Shown: positions 55,644-56,962 of the stretch, one piece after another
How positions within the stretch are numbered: the first letter of the stretch is position 1
How the letters are laid out: each line of letters begins with the position of its first letter
Source: Nostoc sp. CCCryo 231-06
GTDB taxonomy: Bacteria > Cyanobacteriota > Cyanobacteriia > Cyanobacteriales > Nostocaceae
Reading direction: 5' to 3'
Assembly: GCA_023522315.1 (NCBI GenBank)
Contig: JAHCSU010000554.1
Location: forward strand, 1-56,962
Length of the DNA stretch: 56,962 bases
Notes under the pieces: generated by a model
Seen by the model: the letters and a program-made list of their open reading frames with translations, nothing else
What the model was told of the DNA's origin: nothing
The model's database searches: none
Made by a program: the position numbers and the translations under genes

Positions 55644-55934
55644 GGCTGTTATACGAAAGTCATACTATAAATTATCCCTGCTTGCACTCTGTTGGGGTTG
55701 TTAGGGTGCGATCGCTTGGGGTGAAAGCAAAGCGCGATCGCTCTCAACAGCAGAAGTCGTAGGGTGTGAGTATAGGCAAGTGTTGGGTTTTTTGTTATCA
55801 ACTTAATCTAGGGCGAAGGCGATCACCTTTAAGGAGGGAGGGTAACGGTGAGATTAAACGGCTACAACCTACCAAGGGTGTTTATCAGTTCGCTCCAAAC
55901 GAATTGTTATGCCGCATGTATTTTCCGCTTTGAT

Positions 55935-56689
55935 TCAAAGTACGCCCTTGCTTCTAATCTCAAGGGTGGCGTTTTCATAATGATATTTTATCCACTTTTC
56001 TCGAAGAGCTTCATCAGCAAACCTCATAGTGAAATCACCATCACCATGAACTTTGAATAATTGTTCCGATAGGGCTAAATCCTCGTTTTTTATGAATGCT
56101 TCTGCCAGTTCTTTAAAATGTAAAGGCGAATGTGCGACATATGAATCTTTTAAGGCGATTAAGTCACCAGTAATAGGACAGCGCAATTTTTCTACCTCTT
56201 GGAAACTTTTTTCTCTATAAGCATTGACATAGCTATCTACAGCTTCTGTACATGCCATGAGAAAATGACTTGTCACTGATGGAGGGCTTCCAATGCATAC
56301 TTTGTAACTGAAGTTATCTATTGAACCATTTATACGTTGAAACCAGAAACCTTTCGACTTGCCGCGATTGACTACATTCTCTTGTATCCAGATACTCTCT
56401 ATGCCAACACCAATTTTCTCATAGGCATCGGGATGATTATTAAGAAATAATCTCATAAATTGGAAGTCTTTGAGAGATACAGCACTTCCGGCTATTATGA
56501 AGCACAATTTTACCCACATCCCTTTCCTATCCTAACTTTTGAGACGGTGTGCGTACCTCATAGCAGGCGGAAGTGCTGTAAAGGTTGGTTTGGCTTATAT
56601 GCATAGAGAATTTTTTGAACATATTCTTTTAGTTCTTTTTGGGTTTCAAATACTTTGTCCAGGATTTGAGTTTTTTTGCTTCTAGCCAT
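55935..56689 (-). pseudogene. DUF3223 gene split by a small inserted element
   Basis: The first part begins at the ATG at 56689 (MARSKKTQILDKVFETQKEL) and reaches KPNQPL, then enters the element and stops. The second part continues SLKDFQFMRLFLNNHPDAYE, KIGVGIESIW and FWFQRINGSIDNFSYKVCIG to RCPITGDLIALKDSY and ends at 55935. DUF3223 proteins (DCL-like, nuclease-associated) have exactly this order. Deleting 102 bp (the element minus one TA) joins the halves in frame as YKPNQPL-SLKDFQF, so the gene was intact before the insertion. Function of the family unclear. Confidence 0.85.
56478..56581. mobile_element. 104-bp MITE-like element inserted in the DUF3223 gene
   Basis: TACAGCACTTCCG (56478-56490) and its exact complement CGGAAGTGCTGTA (56569-56581). 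The outer TA is the presumed duplicated target. No coding capacity. Confidence 0.9.
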
Positions 56690-56872
56690 TTTTGCTCTAT
56701 ATGCGACTTCGAGAGACAGGTTTTTTAAATTGTGGGCTAGATTAACTGTGAATGCCAACGATTAATCTACTGAGAAAACAACATCCTTAAGCGATCGCTC
56801 TCAATAGTAGAAGTAGTAGAGTTTGAAACAGTTCTACAATAAAGGCAAAGACGTTGAGGTTGAACTAACCTA

Positions 56873-56962
56873 ATGCGTGTACCTGAAACAAACCCAAAGA
56901 TACCAATGCCTTCACCAAGCCTCTACGAAACTGATTTTTATGCTTGGACACAAGAACAAGTA
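56873..56962 (+). CDS. DUF29 family protein, N-terminal start only
   Basis: The frame opens at 56873 (MRVPETNPKIP) or, more likely, at the ATG at 56906, which gives MPSPSLYETDFYAWTQEQV before the window ends. LYETDFYAWTQEQ is the hallmark N-terminus of DUF29, a helical family widespread in cyanobacteria with unknown function. The rest lies beyond the window. Confidence 0.75.
   Translation, partial: MRVPETNPKIPMPSPSLYETDFYAWTQEQV

Follow-up and report, generated by a model that had tools for sequence, protein, structure and literature searches.

A 103-bp IS630/Tc1-type miniature element that very probably split a DUF3223 gene in Nostoc sp. CCCryo 231-06

The DNA analysed here (the window) is the entire 56,962-nucleotide contig JAHCSU010000554.1 of Nostoc sp. 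CCCryo 231-06, one of the 720 contigs (C506) of a 7.08 Mb genome. Close to its end, a minus-strand gene of the DUF3223 family is divided in two by a short, hairpin-forming sequence. Our results leave little doubt that this sequence is a non-autonomous miniature inverted-repeat transposable element (MITE) of the IS630/Tc1 type that inserted into, and split, the gene (Table 1), although we are less sure about the identity of its mover.

The initial annotation had proposed an element of 104 bp ending at 56581. Its exact ends and a family of copies confirm the element but set its extent to 103 bp, ending at 56580 and counting both flanking TAs, so that the insertion would have added 101 bp to a site already bearing one TA. 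The 13-mer TACAGCACTTCCG forms both ends in opposite orientations, and these are its sole two matches in the window at up to two mismatches. Two matches are by themselves commonplace, being reached by 19 of 100 shuffles, so the weight rests on the exact paired arrangement and on the copies found elsewhere. The 13-bp terminal repeats are perfect, as first described, yet they are only the outer part of an inverted repeat that continues with weaker pairing to ca. 28 bp. Each strand folds better than 200 of 200 shuffles (z −5.60 and −5.17) and, as in Type I MITEs, the element is so short that it leaves no space for a transposase gene.

Table 1. Features of the interrupted locus (positions in the window).
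Feature	Position	Strand	Remarks
MITE, group A copy, both TA copies included	56478..56580	.	100% identical copies at C567 and C522
Left terminal inverted repeat, perfect 13 bp with TA, weaker to ~28 bp	56478..56490	+	
Right terminal inverted repeat, perfect 13 bp with TA	56568..56580	-	
TA target duplication, copy 1	56478..56479	.	Exact single-TA empty sites known from the C522 copy
TA target duplication, copy 2	56579..56580	.	Same basis as copy 1
3' part of broken DUF3223 (HamC-like) gene	55935..56477	-	Pfam DUF3223 2.4e-10, PADLOC HamC 1.1e-30 (open reading frame 55935-56519)
5' part of broken gene	56581..56758	-	Stop met inside the MITE
ATG-led 14-codon stretch within the MITE, in the frame of the 3' part; candidate new start	56478..56519	-	

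Across the whole host genome the 13-mer is matched 33 times, whereas the same pattern read backwards gives no match. In a search for copies of the element we scored 40 of the 69 candidates, so the host counts are lower bounds. What we designate group A, which includes the window copy, comprises at least 11 full-length copies of 98–100% identity, plus four halves at contig ends, and group B at least 17 full-length copies of 103 bp with 73–77% identity, plus partial or longer ones. Comparison at the sequence level of 25 of the 28 full-length copies (11/11 from group A and 14/17 from group B) revealed five distinct sequences in group A, the commonest being that of the window with three identical copies, and four in group B, the commonest occurring in nine copies. 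Group C consists of elements of 107 bp, complete in seven of ten loci (L120–L129) and cut by contig ends in the remaining three. The ends of groups B and C are similar to those of group A, and the host thus contains the many near-identical, dispersed copies that characterize Type I MITEs.

Empty sites were evident for the identical copy on contig C522. In base-level comparisons with the 11 best same-genus loci (L150–L160, from 11 genomes), the flanks join with exactly one TA in all 11, and by our reading of the matches listed both flanks are adjacent in at least 17 of 52 other genomes, with one flank or shorter pieces in the remaining genomes among those matches. The duplication of TA, also typical of Type I MITEs, is therefore exact at the C522 copy, and TA stands on both sides of the element at the DUF3223 site. 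The initial claims that the element is a MITE, where it inserted and that it moved recently thus stand. As a separate observation, a stretch of 36–40 bases beside the copy on C567 (L001, 940–976) recurs many times in other genomes of the genus, arranged in tandem-like series.

The TA target was also confirmed, although the preference is narrower than TA alone: A or T occupies the position outside each TA, on both sides, in all 32 host copies tested (11, 14 and 7 from groups A, B and C), in 24 of 26 copies from named genomes, and in four of four plasmid copies of the insertion sequence (IS) described below, and the outer base is likewise A or T at eight of eight IS ends in the host. As background, which served for other organisms too, 35% of the 3,885 TA sites in the window are flanked by A/T on both sides. 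The DUF3223 insertion site conforms to this A/T-TA-A/T rule.

The element is not restricted to this strain. A survey of the family, with up to six candidates scored per genome, gave MITE matches in 33 of 145 genomes, host counted, many of them covering the ends only. Named genomes yielded 26 stretches with elements of 103–106 bp, belonging to Nostoc, Desmonostoc, Calothrix, Microcoleus, Chamaesiphon and one uncultured cyanobacterium. Similarity to the window copy was scored for the 14 that measure 103 bp, the 12 of other lengths falling outside this scoring; 12 of the 14 match at 91–100 of 103 positions, and the other two at 75 and 78. Plasmid records matching the MITE were all from Nostoc (6/6), and a search of viral contigs with one 30-base pattern gave no matches. 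On plasmid p057_G of Nostoc sp. C057 (L078, 3164–3646), 60 bases separate a MITE copy from a gene annotated as a transposase.

Both the strong hairpin and the conservation of the interior between organisms, with nine of the 14 named 103-bp copies agreeing with that of the window at 97–100 positions, might be expected of a regulatory or RNA element, such as a terminator or a transcript stabiliser, kept for its function and only incidentally placed within a gene. We consider this highly improbable, because the copies are dispersed among unrelated flanks, correspond to single-TA empty sites, have ends in common with an IS and occupy A/T-TA-A/T targets; in addition, no Rfam family matched positions 55900–56962 at the gathering threshold.

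Searching for elements and IS with the same ends, as the initial annotation had suggested, retrieved both the MITE family and an IS630 element in the host and in relatives. At the start of host contig C256 lies an IS630-type transposase C-terminus, which abuts the same terminal repeat as that of the MITE. An IS with these ends, of 1,019–1,021 bp end to end, is found in four plasmid records (Nostoc sp. C057, N. edaphicum CCNP1411, Aphanizomenonaceae TIOX110 and Oscillatoria PCC 7112), and its copies in L082 and L083 show one to two mismatches to the 13-mer of the MITE. The TIOX110 transposase contains the DDE_3 and HTH_Tnp_IS630 domains, and a genome of the same family (G067) carries six transposase copies of 315 residues with 100% identity. 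Four left and four right ends of the IS lie at contig breaks of the host assembly, the longest pieces being of 261 and 185 bp, with an additional inner piece on C16. This fits about four IS copies that the assembler could not resolve, and the host thus has a ca. 1 kb IS630 element, probably in about four copies, each truncated at contig ends. Between the MITE and the host IS, 23–27 of the first 30 bases agree but only 4–7 of the next 20, the best pair being the left end of the MITE and the right end of the IS (27/30, then 7/20). Terminal inverted repeats in common with an IS of the same genome are a further trait of Type I MITEs.

On this evidence, the MITE very probably entered the DUF3223 gene at an A/T-flanked TA, which was duplicated in the process, and disrupted the gene through a frameshift and a premature stop. 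Most likely, the common terminal 23–28 bp are recognised by the transposase of the ca. 1 kb host IS630, which would then excise the MITE and insert it elsewhere. The IS630-type mover first proposed is thereby favoured by an IS whose ends match and which prefers the same targets, while movement in trans by it, which presupposes an active transposase, is something we infer rather than observe. It is also conceivable that another transposase, since lost or belonging to a different IS630 subgroup, mobilised the MITE, and that the present IS only shares its ends by descent. Indeed, the host has, elsewhere in the genome, six IS630-type (DDE_3) matches above the cut-off and one below, and the MITE and the present IS lack convincing homology in their interiors. 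Among the 144 other genomes of the family we counted 13 with both the MITE and a transposase match (1e-60), 19 with the MITE only and 18 with the transposase only, a co-occurrence that is a weak test either way because many MITE matches are limited to the ends and may be IS ends. Conversely, an IS with matching ends and identical target preference resides in the same genome, and in the flanking stretches compared for the seven DDE_3 loci no site comes closer to the 13-mer than three mismatches, so we discarded these as movers; the six sites with three mismatches, in five of the seven loci, look like chance. A different mover therefore seems unlikely to us, if worth bearing in mind, and we favour the host IS630.

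We likewise rejected the MITE interior as a remnant of the IS: in a comparison against a database of six sequences, the best matches, neither of them convincing, were of 13 bp (exact, E 0.002, in L085 only) and then of 11 bp (E 0.03, in L083).

The gene itself bears the marks of the insertion. Its two halves lie in different frames of the minus strand, and the 5' half, within an open reading frame (ORF 56558–56758) that opens with TTG at 56758 and contains the ATG of MARSKKTQ, encounters a stop codon in the MITE, whereas the downstream piece enters the DUF3223 profile at column 12. Searches with the DUF3223 protein gave matches in nine of the 144 other family genomes, the closest being two genomes of genus g11 (G111 and G143), with 83% identity, and the other seven showing 28–38%. 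In the related loci L068 and L069 the gene is uninterrupted at the insertion site, with DNA identities of 88% downstream and 83% upstream. In our codon alignment, the residues across the junction (window/L069) are K/E, P/L, N/N, Q/E, P/L, L/L, S/S, L/P, K/E, D/H, F/F, Q/Q and F/F, with no gap, which bears out the proposal that removal of the element joins KPNQPL to SLKDFQF in frame. From these data, the split gene is predicted to have lost its function.

Several observations weigh against the interpretation as a MITE insertion. The initial annotation had itself named intact relatives lacking the expected TA junction as grounds for abandoning it and, taken literally, this partly applies: the gene is uninterrupted in L068 and L069, but at the junction both have TTG in place of the TTA of the window, so that these loci do not display a single TA at the DUF3223 site. 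We take TTG versus TTA for an ordinary synonymous change in genes of 88% DNA identity, because the codon alignment is free of gaps and another copy shows the TA duplication exactly. The relatives in which the gene is intact are from a different genus (g11), and no gene match was found in the third g11 genome (G011) or in the six other sampled same-genus genomes. For the C567 copy, 52 other same-genus genomes gave no clean two-flank empty site among the matches listed. Two of the 26 named copies break the A/T rule. Finally, the host assembly provides no readable complete copy of the IS, so an intact transposase there is not demonstrated, and the absence of a convincing interior match implies that internal deletion of the present IS does not by itself account for the MITE.

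The insertion need not have silenced the gene wholly. The ORF 55935–56519 starts at an ATG within the MITE, in frame with the downstream part, and the minus strand has AGGA five bases ahead of this ATG, so the MITE might supply the start of a product of 194 residues. Such an outcome would fit the insertion of a MITE, but the product would lack the original N-terminus and the first 11 columns of the domain, and we think incomplete silencing of this kind unlikely.

The interrupted gene is similar to hamC, a gene of Hachiman type II. ORF 55935–56519 matches the DUF3223 and PADLOC HamC profiles, the latter with 1.1e-30 compared with 4.6e-34 for the L069 relative, and it also has a weak match to AbiEi (0.0097). 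According to the PADLOC paper (PMC8565338), a DUF3223 gene, termed HamC, occurs in about 3.8% of Hachiman systems. By eye, and with no family scan, we recognised no hamAB among the ORFs near the gene or in L068/L069 (ORFs of at least 100 residues), and a HamA search of the host genome gave no matches, its control being likewise without a match anywhere. The contig ends ca. 0.2 kb past the 5' part of the gene.

A broader reading would have a single IS630 transposase family sustaining the activity of three or more MITE groups, each of fixed length (103, 103 and 107 bp), across several cyanobacterial genera, with interiors under selection, and would have the window copy inactivate the HamC-like defence gene while giving its 3' part a new start. 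We hold this to be rather improbable; if true, the three groups would be active at A/T-TA-A/T sites and their interiors would be kept by selection and not by drift.

In all, the insertion is well supported and ordinary for a MITE, and its partner is of a known kind. Nezha (Zhou et al. 2008), reportedly an 'active' element as its title has it, is comparable in being a cyanobacterial MITE, a likeness judged by the title alone and not by sequence. The MITEs of Anabaena sp. 90, of which 147 complete or partial copies are described, 15 of them in disrupted ORFs, are also cyanobacterial and are set beside ours by description, not sequence; as far as the consulted part of that report goes (PMC3542288), the present host differs in having an IS with matching ends. 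A literature text search for the letters CAGCACTTCCG returned no title on cyanobacteria or transposons, and no title on cyanobacterial MITEs or IS630 names this element, which, as only titles were covered, may be in print. What is added here is a partner in the same genome, a target rule and an exact empty site at a second copy. A MITE family tied to a candidate mover in one genome, with base-exact empty sites and a target rule, offers a ready system in which to test mobilisation in trans in cyanobacteria. The finding also accounts for several contig breaks of the host assembly and cautions annotators that the short ORF 55935–56519 is half of a broken gene.

With regard to known elements, the matching terminal repeats, the TA target and the DDE_3 and HTH_Tnp_IS630 domains of the partner are those of the IS630 family (IS630/Tc1/mariner superfamily), from whose insertion sequences the MITE differs in lacking a transposase gene. 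One end of the group C elements reads GAGGTACACTA, and so does the host IS at its left end, a closer likeness there than that of groups A and B. In several relatives (e.g. L082, 1222–2168) the partner transposase occupies two overlapping frames, of approximately residues 1–128 and 97–315, a further difference from the IS630 family, possibly reflecting programmed frameshifting; in TIOX110, the only one of the four plasmid records where it is annotated as one frame, and in G067, it is a single frame of 315 residues.
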